Below are positions 11,678-18,992 of a DNA stretch of 64,000 nucleotides, one piece after another. Made by a program: the position numbers and the translations under genes. The notes beneath the pieces are model-generated. The model searched no databases, was not told the DNA's origin, and saw only the letters and a list, made by a program, of their open reading frames with translations. Origin of the DNA: Gemmatimonas groenlandica (GTDB lineage: Bacteria; Gemmatimonadota; Gemmatimonadetes; Gemmatimonadales; Gemmatimonadaceae); contig NZ_CP053085.1 in the NCBI RefSeq assembly GCF_013004105.1, forward strand, positions 1,922,001 through 1,986,000, in the 5' to 3' direction. How positions within the stretch are numbered: the first letter of the stretch is position 1; every line of letters starts with the position of its first letter.

Positions 11678-12670
11678 ATGCCCACGACGCTCCCCGCAGT
11701 CCCGACGATCGACGAAATCCGCGCCGCCGCCACGCGCATCGCTCCGCACGCGCAGATCACGCCGCTCCTGACCTCGCCGGCCCTCAATGCGCGCGCGGGT
11801 GGTCGCGTGCTGCTCAAGGCCGAAGTGCTGCAACATACCGGGTCGTTCAAACTGCGCGGCGCGCTGAATCGCCTGCTGCAACTCACCGACGACGAACGCT
11901 CGCGTGGTGTGGTGGCCTATTCGTCTGGGAATCACGCGCAGGCGGTCGCGTACAGTGCCACCCTGCTCGGCATGCGCTCCGTGATCATCATGCCGCAGGA
12001 TGCGCCGGCGCTAAAAATCGAACGCACGCGCGCCTTCGGTGGTGAGGTGGTGCTGTACGACCGCTATACCGAAGACCGCGTTGCCATTGGCGGTGCGATC
12101 GCGCAGGAACATGGCCTGACGATCGTGCCGCCCTTCGAAGATCCGCACATCGTGGCCGGACAGGGCACGTTGGCGCTCGAGGCGCTTACTCAGGCCGCAG
12201 CGATGGGTTACACACCCGAGACGCTACTGGTGTGCTGCGGCGGCGGCGGCCTCACCGCTGGCTCGGCGCTCGCCGCTGCCGCAGTGTCGCCAAACACCGT
12301 GGTGCATCCGTGCGAGCCGGCGGAGTTCGACGACACCGCACGTTCGTTGCGGCTGGGCCATCGCGTGGCGAACGAGCCCGGCAAGCGCTCCATCTGCGAC
12401 GCGATCGTGACCGAGATGCCCGGTGAATTCACGTTCTCGATCAATCAGCCCCGTGTCGGCGCTGGTCTCACGGTGACCGACGACGAGGTGCTCGCGGCCA
12501 TCGCCTTCGCCGTGCGCGAACTCAAGTTGGTGGTGGAGCCGGGCGGCGCCGCCGCGCTGGCCGCGCTGCTGTCGGGCAAGCTCGAGACGAAAGGGCGCAC
12601 GACGATGGTGGTGGTCACCGGCGGCAACATCGATCCGGCGATGCTGGCGCGAGCGATCGGTGTCGTCTGA
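11678..12670 (+). CDS. Threonine/serine dehydratase-like PLP enzyme
   Basis: This 330-residue fold-type II PLP enzyme has the cofactor lysine in HTGSFKLRGA, the SSGNHAQAVAYSA substrate loop, and the glycine-rich phosphate cup CCGGGGLTAGSALA. It matches the short catabolic threonine dehydratase/serine racemase/hydroxyaspartate ammonia-lyase group and lacks the C-terminal ACT regulatory domain of biosynthetic IlvA. The upstream extension of the frame overlaps the small membrane gene, so the ATG at 11678 was chosen. Its last 11 bases overlap the next gene. Which amino acid it acts on cannot be read from sequence. Confidence 0.85.
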   Translation: MPTTLPAVPTIDEIRAAATRIAPHAQITPLLTSPALNARAGGRVLLKAEVLQHTGSFKLRGALNRLLQLTDDERSRGVVAYSSGNHAQAVAYSATLLGMRSVIIMPQDAPALKIERTRAFGGEVVLYDRYTEDRVAIGGAIAQEHGLTIVPPFEDPHIVAGQGTLALEALTQAAAMGYTPETLLVCCGGGGLTAGSALAAAAVSPNTVVHPCEPAEFDDTARSLRLGHRVANEPGKRSICDAIVTEMPGEFTFSINQPRVGAGLTVTDDEVLAAIAFAVRELKLVVEPGGAAALAALLSGKLETKGRTTMVVVTGGNIDPAMLARAIGVV

Positions 12671-13751
12671 CGCCGCACCCGTGATCCTGCTGCTCCCCGG
12701 GCTGTACGACTCGGGGCCGGCGCATTGGCAATCGCTGTGGCAAGCCCACGCCACTGCCCTTCCCGTTGAACGCGTGGTGCAACAGGAGTGGGCGGCGCCG
12801 CGCTGCGTCGACTGGGTCGCACGACTCACGCAGGTGATGCAGGAGACCGCACACGATGTCGTGCTGGTCGCCCACAGCAGCGCCTGCGCCATGCTCGCGC
12901 ACTGGGCGCGCGAGGCGCCGCTGACGCTCATCATGCGGGTGCGTGGCGCGCTGCTGGTCGCGCCCAGCGACCCCCTCGCGCCGGCGTATCCGAGTGGGCC
13001 CACCGGATTCGCCCCCGTGCCTCTGCACGCGCTGCCCTTCCCCAGCACCGTCGTGGCCAGCCGCAACGACGAGTACGTGACGTTCGCCCAGGCCGAGCAG
13101 TACGCCGCGGCGTGGGGCAGCAAGCTGTGGGATCTCGGCGAGGCCGGGCACATCAACGCCGACGCCGGCTTCGGCCCGTGGCCCGAGGGCTGGCGCGCCG
13201 TAGAGGAGATGGCCGCGGCGCCGCAGTGTCGGGTCGCCCGCTACAGCGACGTCGCGGCACTGACCGCGTTGATCGACGCGTCGGTACGCCGGTTGGCGGC
13301 GGGGTACTACACCGACGCGCAGATCGCGTCGTCGCTGGCGTACGTGTTCGGCGTCGACTCGAGTCTCATTCACGATCGCAGCTACTTCGTACTCGAGCAG
13401 CACGGCGAGATCGTGGCCGGCGGTGGCTGGAGCGATCACCAGACCCTGTTCGGCGGCGACCAGTTCCATAACCGCGGCGAGGGACGCCTGAACCCCACCA
13501 CGTCACCGGCGCGGATCCGTGCGTTCTACGTACACCCCGACCACGCCCGGCGCGGCTACGCCAAGCGCCTCTTGCGCGTCTGCAGTGCCGCCGCGCGACG
13601 CGCGGGATTTACCTCGCTGTCGCTGATGTCGACGCTGCCAGGTGAGCCACTCTATCGGGCGCTGGGGTTCGTGCCTGACGTGGGAGTGGACTATCCCATG
13701 CCCGACGGGACGACACTGCCGCTGATTCCGATGACGAAAGGGATCGCGTAG
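12660..13751 (+). CDS. RBBP9/YdeN-type serine hydrolase fused to a GNAT acetyltransferase
   Basis: Residues 6-185 form an RBBP9-like alpha/beta hydrolase: LLPGLYDSGPAHWQSLW, the nucleophile motif VAHSSAC (Ser73), the acid region SRNDEYV and the catalytic-His segment GHINADAGFGPWPEG. Residues about 195-363 form a GNAT N-acyltransferase, with the acetyl-CoA loop FYVHPDHARRGYAKRLL and YRALGF. The two are in one frame with no stop between them. It starts with GTG and overlaps the dehydratase stop by 11 bp. Each domain is common alone; the pairing is unusual. Substrates unknown. Confidence 0.85.
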   Translation: MSSDAAPVILLLPGLYDSGPAHWQSLWQAHATALPVERVVQQEWAAPRCVDWVARLTQVMQETAHDVVLVAHSSACAMLAHWAREAPLTLIMRVRGALLVAPSDPLAPAYPSGPTGFAPVPLHALPFPSTVVASRNDEYVTFAQAEQYAAAWGSKLWDLGEAGHINADAGFGPWPEGWRAVEEMAAAPQCRVARYSDVAALTALIDASVRRLAAGYYTDAQIASSLAYVFGVDSSLIHDRSYFVLEQHGEIVAGGGWSDHQTLFGGDQFHNRGEGRLNPTTSPARIRAFYVHPDHARRGYAKRLLRVCSAAARRAGFTSLSLMSTLPGEPLYRALGFVPDVGVDYPMPDGTTLPLIPMTKGIA

Positions 13752-14950: not shown

Positions 14951-16567
14951 ATGACTACTCGTCGCGATTTTCTCGTCACCGGCGGCGCCGCACTCGGCGC
15001 GCTGGCGATCGGTCCCAGCGCTCTGCGGGCACTGCCCGGATTCAAGCCGCTCCCCGCGCTCTACACCGACGCGGCCACACGCGAACTCATGATGGAGGCG
15101 CTCGACGCCGCCAAACGCTACGGCGCCTCATGGGCCGACGTGCGCATCTCGCGCAATCGCAACAACAGCATCCAAACGCGCGAACGCCAAGTCACCGACG
15201 TCGTCGACACCGACACGATGGGTTGTGGTGTGCGCGTGCTGGTTGATGGCTGCTGGGGATTCTGCGCGACGCAGGAGCTCACCAAGGAAGGCGTCGGTAC
15301 GGCCGCGCAGGAAGCGGTGGCCATTGCCAAGGCCAATCGCATTGCGCGCGACCGTCGCGTCGAACTCGCACCCTCGCCGGCGCATCCGAACGCCACGTGG
15401 CGCAGCGCCTATCAGATCGACCCCTTCACCGTGCCGGTGGAAACCAAGGCTGATCTGCTTCTGCGCGCCAACGCCGAGGCACTGAAAGTGCCCAACGTGC
15501 GCTTCGTGAACTCCGGTCTCTCGTTCGTGAAGGAAGAGCGCAACTACGCGAACACCGACGGCTCGGTGATCACGCAGGACTACGTGCGCAGCTGGGTCAC
15601 CATGAGCTGCACCGCCGTCGCGCCTGATCGCTCCGGCACGGCCGTGCGGGGCCCCGAAGTGGTGCAGCCGGCCGGTCGCGGCTGGGAATACGTGCTCGAA
15701 GCCGACATCGTGAAGAACGCCACCAAGTGGGGTGAGGAAGCCGCCGAGAAGCTCACGGCCAAGCCGGTGGAACCGGGCCGCTACGATCTCATTCTGCATC
15801 CGTCGCAGCTGTTCCTCACGATTCACGAATCGCTCGCGCACCCCACCGAACTCGATCGCGCCATGGGCTACGAAGCCAACTACGCCGGCACCAGCTTCAT
15901 GGCACCGCCGGAGAAAGTGCTCGGCTCGCTCAAGCTCGGACCGCCCATGATGAACCTCGTGGGCAATCGCAACGAAGTCGGCGCGCTCGCCACGATCGGC
16001 TACGACGATGACGGCGTGCAACCCGACACCTTCCACATCGTGAAAGACGGTATTCTCAACGACTACCAGACCACGCGCGAACAGGCGCCGTGGCTGTCGT
16101 CGTGGTACGCCAAGAACGGCAAGCCGGTGCGCTCGCACGGCTGCTCGTACGCGCAGAGCTGGGCCGACGTGCAGTTCCAGCGCATGCCGAATGTGTCGCT
16201 GCAGCCTGGGGCCAAGGACCTCAGCTGGGATGATCTCATCGCCGCCACCGACAAGGGCATCGCCATGATCGGGCGTGCGTCGTACTCGATCGATCAGCAG
16301 CGTTACAACGCGCAGTTCGGCGCGCAGCTCTGCTACGAAGTGCGCAAGGGCAAGATCGTGGGCCAGGTGAAGGACGCCGCATACCAGATGCGCACGCCCG
16401 ACTTCTGGAACACGCTCGACATGCTCGGCGGCAAGAGCAGCTACGAGTTCGGCGGCACCTTCAACGACGGCAAGGGCCAGCCCGGACAGGCGAATGCCGT
16501 GAGCCACGGCTGCCCGCCGACGCGCTTCAAGAACGCGAACATCATCAACACGGGACGCACGGTATGA
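14951..16567 (+). CDS. TldD-family metalloprotease with Tat signal
   Basis: This 538-residue protein is a TldD homologue: the zinc motif HESLAH (HExxxH) sits in the middle of the chain, with the beta-strand-rich flanks of the family and the C-terminal cysteine-bearing segment SHGCPPTRF. It opens with TTRRDFLVTGG and a hydrophobic run, a good twin-arginine signal, so the enzyme is probably exported folded. TldD acts as a dimer with TldE to cleave unfolded peptides. The TldE gene overlaps its stop as ATGA. Export of a TldD is unusual compared with the cytoplasmic E. coli protein. Confidence 0.9.
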   Translation: MTTRRDFLVTGGAALGALAIGPSALRALPGFKPLPALYTDAATRELMMEALDAAKRYGASWADVRISRNRNNSIQTRERQVTDVVDTDTMGCGVRVLVDGCWGFCATQELTKEGVGTAAQEAVAIAKANRIARDRRVELAPSPAHPNATWRSAYQIDPFTVPVETKADLLLRANAEALKVPNVRFVNSGLSFVKEERNYANTDGSVITQDYVRSWVTMSCTAVAPDRSGTAVRGPEVVQPAGRGWEYVLEADIVKNATKWGEEAAEKLTAKPVEPGRYDLILHPSQLFLTIHESLAHPTELDRAMGYEANYAGTSFMAPPEKVLGSLKLGPPMMNLVGNRNEVGALATIGYDDDGVQPDTFHIVKDGILNDYQTTREQAPWLSSWYAKNGKPVRSHGCSYAQSWADVQFQRMPNVSLQPGAKDLSWDDLIAATDKGIAMIGRASYSIDQQRYNAQFGAQLCYEVRKGKIVGQVKDAAYQMRTPDFWNTLDMLGGKSSYEFGGTFNDGKGQPGQANAVSHGCPPTRFKNANIINTGRTV

Positions 16568-17964
16568 GCGAGTCCTCGAGCGACACCATGCGCGATAGCA
16601 TAAGCGACACGAAAGCCATGGCTGCGATCGGCGTGCTTTCGCGCGAACAGGCGCAGGCGATCGTCGAGCGCGCCGTGAAGTTGTCCAAGGCGGACGCCGT
16701 GCGCGTCTCGGTGAACAGCTCGCGCGAAACGAATCTACGCTTCGCCGACAATCAGATGTCGACGTCGGGCGTGACGACCAACAGCACGATCCGGATTCAG
16801 AGCGTGTTCGGCAAGCGCAAGGCGAGTGTGGTCACCAACGATCGCAGCGACGAAGGACTCCGTCGTGCGGTCGAACAGTCGGAAGCATTGGCCCGATTAG
16901 CCCCGGAAGACCCCGAGTATCTCGGTGAGCTGCCGCCGCAAACGTACGCACCCGTGAACGCGTGGTTCGATCGCACCGCCGATCTGTCGGCGGAAGACCG
17001 GGCCAAGGCCGCGATGACAGCCCTCGCACCGGCGCGCGCGGCGAAAGATCTCACTGTGGCGGGCTTCATCATCTGCAACGCCAGCGCGAGCGCGATCGGC
17101 AACAGCGCCGGTCTGTTTGCGTATCATCGCGGCACGAGTGCCAACTACACGCTCACCGCGCGCACCACGGACGGTACGGGCTCGGGCTGGGTGGGCAGTG
17201 AGAGCACCGACTGGAGCGCCATCGACTTCCAGTCGGTGGCCGACCGTGCCATCGACAAGGCGCGTCGCTCGCGCAATCCAGTGGGCATCGAGCCCGGTCG
17301 CTATACCGTGATCTTCGAGCCCGAGGCCACGGCCAATCTCGTCAGTCTGATGGGCGGCGCCTTTCAGGCCCGTTCCGCCGACGAAGGACGCTCGGCATTC
17401 TCGAAGGCCGGTGGCGGCACGCGCCTCGGTGAAAAGATCGTGGATGAACGCGTCACGCTCATCAGCGACCCGGGCGACGCACTCATTCTTGGCTCGCCGT
17501 TCGATGGCGAAGGCATGCCCACGGGCAAGCAGACGTGGGTGCAGAACGGCGTGCTCAATCAGCTGGCGTACAATCGGTTCTGGGCCAACAAGCAGGGCAA
17601 GACGGCCACCGGCGGTGCGCAGTCGCTGCGCATGGCCAGTGGCAAGGACTCCATCGAGTCGATGATTGCCAGCACCACGCGCGGTGTACTGGTCACGCGG
17701 CTGTGGTATCTGCGTCCGCTCGACGCGCGCACGCTCATGTACACGGGACTCACGCGCGATGGCACCTTCCTGATCGAGAACGGCAAGATCGCGCGTTCGA
17801 TCAAGAACTTCCGCTTCAACGACTCCCCGCTGTTTATGCTGAATAACCTCGAAGGCGTGGGAGCCGCGGTGCGTACGGCCGGCGGTGAAGGTGGGCCGGG
17901 CGTCGCGATGCCGCCCATCAAGGTGCGCGATTTCAACTTTTCCAGCTCGTCGGACGCGGTATGA
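16564..17964 (+). CDS. TldE/PmbA-family partner subunit
   Basis: The 466-residue protein matches TldE/PmbA: an N-terminal domain with SKADAVRVSVNSSRETNLRF-type sequence, and a C-terminal domain ending in the LEGVGAAVRTAGGEGGPGVAMPP region. It lacks the HExxxH zinc site, as expected for the non-catalytic partner. It has no signal peptide although its TldD partner has a Tat signal, so if the pair is exported it would have to travel bound to TldD. Starts and stops overlap both neighbours by ATGA, indicating strict translational coupling. Confidence 0.9.
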   Translation: MSESSSDTMRDSISDTKAMAAIGVLSREQAQAIVERAVKLSKADAVRVSVNSSRETNLRFADNQMSTSGVTTNSTIRIQSVFGKRKASVVTNDRSDEGLRRAVEQSEALARLAPEDPEYLGELPPQTYAPVNAWFDRTADLSAEDRAKAAMTALAPARAAKDLTVAGFIICNASASAIGNSAGLFAYHRGTSANYTLTARTTDGTGSGWVGSESTDWSAIDFQSVADRAIDKARRSRNPVGIEPGRYTVIFEPEATANLVSLMGGAFQARSADEGRSAFSKAGGGTRLGEKIVDERVTLISDPGDALILGSPFDGEGMPTGKQTWVQNGVLNQLAYNRFWANKQGKTATGGAQSLRMASGKDSIESMIASTTRGVLVTRLWYLRPLDARTLMYTGLTRDGTFLIENGKIARSIKNFRFNDSPLFMLNNLEGVGAAVRTAGGEGGPGVAMPPIKVRDFNFSSSSDAV

Positions 17965-18992
17965 TCGACCCGCGCGCGGCGCGCCGCACAAAACGGGCGG
18001 TGCGCTTCGCCGTGGGGCTGTTCTTGCTGGGCACGATCTTCCTTTCGGGTCCGCGCCCCAGCGTGGAATGGACGGACACGAGTCCGTACGCGGCCACGAT
18101 GCACGTGGTCGCGTCAGCGCTTCCCGACAGCATCGCTGAGTTCCCGCAGTGGTTTGCAACGCAGGAGCGCGCGGCGGGCGTCACCGATCCCGACGTCGCG
18201 AAGCGCGTGATGTTCGCCGACAGCGTGCACCCGTCGAAGACCGCGTGGAGTGTGGTCTATCTTCACGGCTTCTCCGCCACACGACAGGAAACGTCTCCGC
18301 TCAGCGAAGAAGTGGCGCGCGCGCTCGGAGCCAACCTGTACGAAACGCGACTCCGCGGCCACGGGCTGCCTGGCGATTCCTTGGGTCACGTCCAGGCACG
18401 CGACTGGATGGGCGATGCCGCCTTCTCGCTCGACGTGGCGCGTCGGCTTGGCGACTCGGTACTCGTGATCGGCACCAGCACCGGCGGCACGCTCGGCGTG
18501 TGGCTGGCCACGCTGCCCAAGCCCGTGCGTGAGGGACTGCACGCGCTCGTGCTCATCTCACCAAACTTCGGTCCGAAAGATCCCGACGCCGGCTTGCTCA
18601 CGCTGCCCTGGGCCGAGGTCGTGCTGCCGCGTTTCATTCCGCAGCGCGAATGGACCGCGAAGAATGACGAACAGAAGCGCTTCTGGACGATGCGCTATCC
18701 GTCGGCGGCGCTCTTCCCGATGCAGGCGCTCGTCGAGCATGTGCGCGACGCGGCACTGAGCGGCTATGACGTGCCCACGCTCGCGTTCTACAACGAAGGC
18801 GACAACGTCGTCGACGCGAAGCGCACCACGACATGGCTCGATGCCCTCGACGCCGAAGGGACGGTGAAAGCGCAGCGTGTGGTGGTCATTCCGACCACTG
18901 GCGAAGATGGGCACGTGATCGCCGGCCGCATCGTGTCGCCCAGCCAGACGGCCACGTTCCGCGATCGCATCGTGGCGTTCGTGCGCCCGTAG
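17961..18992 (+). CDS. Membrane-anchored alpha/beta hydrolase
   Basis: After a short basic N-terminus there is one hydrophobic anchor (about residues 15-31), then an extracytoplasmic alpha/beta hydrolase of about 300 residues. Signs are YLHGFSATRQE (oxyanion region), the nucleophile GTSTGG and a C-terminal GEDGHVI histidine, reminiscent of monoacylglycerol-lipase/carboxylesterase types. It overlaps the TldE stop by ATGA and closes the three-gene unit. Its location outside the membrane agrees with export of the TldD subunit. Substrate unknown. Confidence 0.85.
   Translation: MIDPRAARRTKRAVRFAVGLFLLGTIFLSGPRPSVEWTDTSPYAATMHVVASALPDSIAEFPQWFATQERAAGVTDPDVAKRVMFADSVHPSKTAWSVVYLHGFSATRQETSPLSEEVARALGANLYETRLRGHGLPGDSLGHVQARDWMGDAAFSLDVARRLGDSVLVIGTSTGGTLGVWLATLPKPVREGLHALVLISPNFGPKDPDAGLLTLPWAEVVLPRFIPQREWTAKNDEQKRFWTMRYPSAALFPMQALVEHVRDAALSGYDVPTLAFYNEGDNVVDAKRTTTWLDALDAEGTVKAQRVVVIPTTGEDGHVIAGRIVSPSQTATFRDRIVAFVRP

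Follow-up and report, generated by a model that had tools for sequence, protein, structure and literature searches.

The locus described here raises the question of how a peptidase that is usually placed in the cytoplasm comes to carry an export signal on only one of its two subunits. It lies in a 64,000-nucleotide stretch of the Gemmatimonas groenlandica chromosome (contig NZ_CP053085.1, positions 1,922,001 to 1,986,000; hereafter the window), where tldD and tldE, encoding the two subunits of a TldD/TldE metallopeptidase, overlap. An earlier note on this DNA had claimed that TldD starts with a twin-arginine translocation (Tat) signal followed by a hydrophobic run and that TldE is signal-less, and had suggested export of the pair by hitchhiking through Tat. 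The asymmetry between the subunits is real. An extracytoplasmic metallopeptidase whose folded heterodimer exits via Tat on the TldD signal, with TldE hitchhiking, is the probable explanation. TldD/E peptidases are very widespread among prokaryotes, and the 2017 structure paper (PMC5810440) describes their general role as unsettled.

The N-terminus of TldD reads MTTRRDFLVTGGAALGALAIGPSALRALPGF. It matched the TIGR01409 model TAT_signal_seq with 17.7 bits at a curated cut-off of 16.7, and the same model did not match TldE, so both halves of the claimed asymmetry held. The AlphaFold model of TldD (predicted local distance difference test, pLDDT, 84) superposed on E. coli TldD (5nj5_C) with a root-mean-square deviation of 3.1. 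The canonical TldD portion starts at about residue 35, where the alignment with E. coli TldD begins, and the Tat signal can therefore be seen as a segment added ahead of an ordinary TldD. The twin arginines R4-R5 were invariant in the 31 rows of A3, all of which had been selected for having them. One TatC match (PF00902) and one match of the TatA/B type (PF02416) were found in the genome, a single contig of 5.18 Mb. With a twin-arginine signal and Tat machinery genes at hand, TldD has the sequence features of a Tat substrate, and its predicted export is well supported by sequence.

All three PmbA/TldD domains were present in both TldD and TldE, each above the Pfam cut-off. The AlphaFold model of TldE had a pLDDT of 91, with residues 1-20 under 50, and matched the structures 6j6a_A (Z 37.9) and 5nj9_B (Z 33.6). 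The HExxxH motif was absent from its translation. In these respects the pair resembles E. coli TldD/TldE (PmbA; PDB 5NJ5 and related), with both folds, HExxxH on TldD alone and an adjacent pairing partner. It differs from the E. coli enzyme in the Tat signal ahead of TldD, in an Asp in place of Cys454, in an identity of 20% and in the overlap of its two genes within a single operon. The NCBIfam equivalog models for the E. coli type (NF008006, 37.5 of the 513 bits required) and the archaeal type (NF040952, 118.3 of 635 bits) did not reach their cut-offs with the window TldD.

A PF01523 search of the window genome returned six members, which formed three pairs. A twin-arginine motif followed by a hydrophobic stretch opens each of the three TldDs and none of the three TldEs, and no untagged TldD was found among the six members. 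The closest named relatives, with a TldD 99-100% identical to that of the window, also belonged to Gemmatimonadota (L040 to L044). The tldE of the third pair (L008:6393-7664, minus strand) is frameshifted in a G/C-rich repeat and the family sequence resumes in the next frame, which is either an assembly error or real. Both pairs outside the window adjoin genes that, by an impression from their translations, resemble secreted peptidases with Sec-type starts (L007:5318-6625 and L008:9540-11000, both plus strand).

In a sample of the phylum, matches were present in 81 of 150 genomes and 46 of 75 genera, with one to four matches per genome. For the census, 80 stretches and 78 loci were gathered from Gemmatimonadota genomes; outside this phylum, coverage consisted of plasmid- and phage-collection records only. 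The census profile was built without the signal region, whereas the first queries (A1) had included it and may slightly favour tagged sequences. It yielded 223 TldD-like frames, 202 of them unique by exact sequence, a deduplication under which near relatives recur. HExxxH together with Asp at the position of the third zinc ligand was found in 170 of the 202 domains. Among these Asp-type TldDs, 146 passed a combined test for the Tat motif and a hydrophobic core, 13 showed the motif ahead of a weaker core, and the test flagged 10 as edge and one as none. When the last 11 were read out, four proved to have Tat-type starts (L136, L157, L177, L178), and in the other seven the N-terminus was cut off where the contig ends or the frame is split. 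Twin arginines were thus present in all 163 readable N-termini. Of 198 unique TldD-type sequences, tagged and untagged, 161 carried the motif [STDNKAH]RRxF[LIVM] in their N-terminal region; when these regions were shuffled, it turned up in 15 of 9,900 versions. In a chosen diverse set, TIGR01409 matched 24 of 31 TldDs and none of 31 TldEs.

The TldE side of the census comprised 179 unique sequences, partners of tagged and untagged TldDs, and 178 had a readable start. None of these starts was Tat-like or Sec-like: averaged over 12 uncharged residues, hydropathy stayed below 1.6 in every TldE and reached 1.2 in four, in linkers such as GAVPAGIL. The earlier note had proposed a survey of how often a tagged TldD pairs with a signal-less TldE, and such a survey gave 163 of 163 against 0 of 178. 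The commonest gene arrangements were D-E (127 loci), D-E-D-E (11) and E-D (8), and the asymmetry was unchanged in the E-D loci, where tldE is upstream. In 35 of 45 listed tldEs the start lay at -4 or -1 from the tldD stop, starts closest to the stop having been favoured in the choice. A signal on TldD only is the rule for this TldD subfamily across Gemmatimonadota. The exported TldD with a signal-less partner that the earlier note had read from one locus is strongly supported by sequence and survey, and is not peculiar to that locus.

The catalytic site is conserved with one substitution. TldD of the window keeps HExxxH (H292, E293, H297) as well as K508, E300 and D302, the equivalents of E. 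coli Lys456, Glu270 and Asp272, and has Asp506 in place of E. coli Cys454. The structure paper shows Cys454 as a ligand in E. coli TldD and mentions Asp at this position in Gemmatimonas (PMC5810440). Since that paper allows Asp there and names the genus, membership of the TldD/PmbA family stands, and Asp506 is the probable third metal ligand.

Eleven TldDs with HExxxH and a Cys ligand had no Tat signal: L118, L119, L120, L121 and L122 from plasmids and L164, L165, L167, L169, L170 and L172 from Gemmatimonadota. In seven of them the ligand column was misaligned and the Cys was taken from context. Six further plasmid TldDs (L204 to L209), likewise untagged and with Cys, brought the controls to 17. 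A loose motif search flagged L119, L120 and L170, in which no hydrophobic core follows the twin arginines. Of the untagged relatives found, the pairs of the actinobacteria Nonomuraea (L118) and M. ulcerans (L119) came closest, their TldDs being 43-44% identical to that of the window. They share its gene order and ATGA overlap and differ in that TldD has no signal and carries Cys at the Asp506 position, in the same sequence context. On the Novosphingobium plasmid L122 (672-7445), the two tld genes are followed by genes for a thioredoxin, a hypothetical protein, a thioredoxin reductase and an M3 peptidase.

Within the Gemmatimonadota sample, Tat signal and Asp co-occurred among TldDs with the catalytic motif and a readable start. 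In a tree for which 48 of the 202 domains were kept after partial domains and near-duplicates had been dropped, each character changed once, on the same branch. Judged from this tree, the link between Tat signal and Asp in the phylum is a coincidence resting on one branch. A group of Tat-tagged TldD-like proteins has lost both HExxxH and the Asp ligand, which is replaced by Thr, Val, Ser or Tyr (L173, L175, L182 and L183; also L174, L180 and L181). They often stand in tandem with a tldE still adjoining and are read as exported pseudo-peptidases.

A second case came from a plasmid of Parabacteroides distasonis. The N-terminus of its TldD (L203:2536-5389) is MNINRRDFIKTGGMVMLGTLAAPSLLGSC, which by eye is of the Tat type with a lipobox-like cysteine at the end; it was not listed by TIGR01409 at E 0.1. 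A faecal contig filed under phages (L210) encoded a TldD 72% identical to it, with the N-terminus MDRRNFLRTGSLAMLGSLAVPSLA. Both resemble the window in having a Tat-type start on TldD and a signal-less TldE directly downstream, and both differ from it in belonging to another TldD subfamily, in keeping the Cys ligand and in their separate tree position, L203 also in its lipobox-like cysteine. The idea that an Asp zinc ligand accompanies export as a rule was rejected on these two proteins, which also indicate that Asp is not required for the tag. A tree of 52 rows, obtained by removing four long-branch rows from the 48 and adding eight, required the Tat label to change twice, on starred branches, and the ligand once; no significance was attainable, a sign test needing at least six informative pairs. 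In both trees 'no Tat' had been assigned by hand and 'Tat' from motif tests and reading by eye. From its placement, the Bacteroidota-type asymmetry appears to be of separate origin from that in Gemmatimonadota. Apart from L210, the phage collection gave weak matches and one short fragment, and no TldD relatives were found in viral contigs. The fragment, annotated 'metalloprotease' in Streptomyces phage Success (NC_073472.1:6519-6764), matches only TldD residues 453-534 at 55% identity and represents a TldD C-terminal piece.

Tat hitchhiker export is established for other complexes. E. coli PaoABC is reportedly a redox enzyme exported in this way with a signal on one subunit only, and the window pair resembles it in having one signalled subunit and a partner without signal. 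The difference is that the passenger here would be a zinc-type peptidase, whose co-export is proposed from sequence. TldE fits a hitchhiker in lacking a signal of its own beside a signalled partner. A search confined to open-licence papers found no description of an exported TldD.

The E. coli enzyme is active only when both subunits are present, and together they make a stable heterodimer (PMC5810440). Since TldE lacks an export route and its E. coli counterpart is indispensable to TldD, joint exit on the TldD signal is the simplest reading. Both genes would be expressed from one translationally coupled message, and, as for the E. coli enzyme, folding, pairing and metal loading would all take place in the cytoplasm. 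The folded heterodimer would then cross the Tat translocase on its single signal. We infer pairing before export and extracytoplasmic substrates. Co-export of TldE is likely but unproven, a further step from the data than export of TldD. Hitchhiking is the best inference for TldE, since the same asymmetry is seen in Gemmatimonadota and Bacteroidota and whichever of the two genes comes first.

Several observations weigh against joint export. Three tagged TldDs have no adjoining tldE (L132, L189 with the frame at 13422, and L196), and tandem D-D-E loci occur. TldD can self-associate, and for Sulfolobus a TldD homodimer with activity has been reported (cited in PMC5810440). These points would suit a TldD exported alone as a homodimer, with TldE staying in the cytoplasm to keep TldD inactive or proofread it before export, like a dedicated chaperone. 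This arrangement is unlikely, as E. coli TldD depends on TldE for activity and forms a less stable homodimer (PMC5810440), and nearly all tagged TldDs have kept an adjacent tldE. Further points concern the partner and the signal. One of the 31 TldEs matched the Tat-related TIGR03808, probably by chance (E 0.049). Cysteine depletion, tried as a mark of TldE export, gave an ambiguous picture: TldE domains had on average 1.25 Cys beside tagged TldDs (n = 151), 2.56 beside untagged ones (n = 9) and 3.5 beside tagged pseudo-TldDs (n = 8). TIGR01409 left seven of the 31 diverse TldDs unmatched, the hydrophobic core was weak in 13 of the 163 Asp-type TldDs, and no clear signal-peptidase site was seen by eye in the window TldD. 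The lack of an obvious cleavage site would also suit a Tat-like N-terminus that is a membrane anchor or unused, with the pair working at the inner membrane face or in the cytoplasm. That is improbable, given that the twin arginines are retained throughout N-termini that otherwise vary and that untagged relatives simply lack the signal segment.

The features of the locus are collected in Table 1. The third open reading frame overlaps tldE by 4 bases, an ATGA, in the same way as tldE overlaps tldD. Its product has an N-terminal hydrophobic segment after several Arg/Lys residues and a Hydrolase_4 (serine-hydrolase) domain (35.6 bits, cut-off 27), which makes the 'outward-facing hydrolase' of the earlier note a fair guess. 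Its inclusion in the set did not hold beyond the genus. Homologues were found in only seven searched loci, all of the same genus or near-identical species, and no neighbour family recurred widely beside tldDE pairs, though many loci were too short to show one and the home-made gene caller, based on third-position GC content (GC3), was checked on the window region only. The ATGA overlaps suggest a single transcript of the three genes, and an anchored hydrolase could form the third part of one exported system; with so narrow a distribution this is very unlikely, and the gene is probably a genus-level neighbour outside the system. Upstream, a serine hydrolase domain (PF06821) is fused with a GNAT acetyltransferase domain in one open reading frame (12660-13751, plus strand).

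Table 1. Features of the tldDE locus, in window positions.
Feature	Position	Strand	Basis
tldD, Tat-tagged catalytic subunit, 538 amino acids	14951..16567	+	PF01523, PF19290, PF19289; model against E. coli TldD Z 31.9, 454 residues aligned
Tat signal region, residues 1-34	14951..15052	+	TIGR01409 above cut-off; structure alignment covers model residues 35-535
Twin-arginine codons R4-R5	14960..14965	+	Invariant in A3; 163/163 readable Asp-type TldD N-termini
HExxxH motif, H292-E293-S-L-A-H297	15824..15841	+	H, E and H invariant in A3; aligns with E. coli TldD H262/E263/H267
Asp506, probable third metal ligand, E. coli Cys454 position	16466..16468	+	Invariant in A3; Cys in untagged actinobacterial relatives
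tldE, non-catalytic partner without signal, 466 amino acids	16564..17964	+	Pfam; model against TldE structures Z 33-38; start not Tat- or Sec-like
ATGA overlap, tldD stop / tldE start	16564..16567	+	Sequence
Alpha/beta hydrolase anchored at its N-terminus; adjoining gene, probably outside the system	17961..18992	+	Hydrolase_4; homologue in only 7 loci searched

Outside the membrane, the hollow heterodimer would trim unfolded peptides, probably for scavenging or clearance. Such a general role fits better than the maturation of one dedicated peptide, because genomes have between one and four matches and no partner gene recurs beside the pairs. We lean slightly towards an extracytoplasmic branch of TldD/TldE with at least two origins, in Gemmatimonadota and Bacteroidota, each by a Tat signal on the catalytic subunit only, which would make it a non-redox hitchhiking Tat passenger. 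In Gemmatimonadota this step would have coincided with the change of the thiol ligand to Asp, and tagged TldD-like proteins without an active site would have followed. The substrates of TldD/E studied so far are intracellular. If a whole phylum does export the enzyme, present models describe its biology only in part, and Tat research would gain a passenger of two subunits that acts as a peptidase and not as a redox enzyme.

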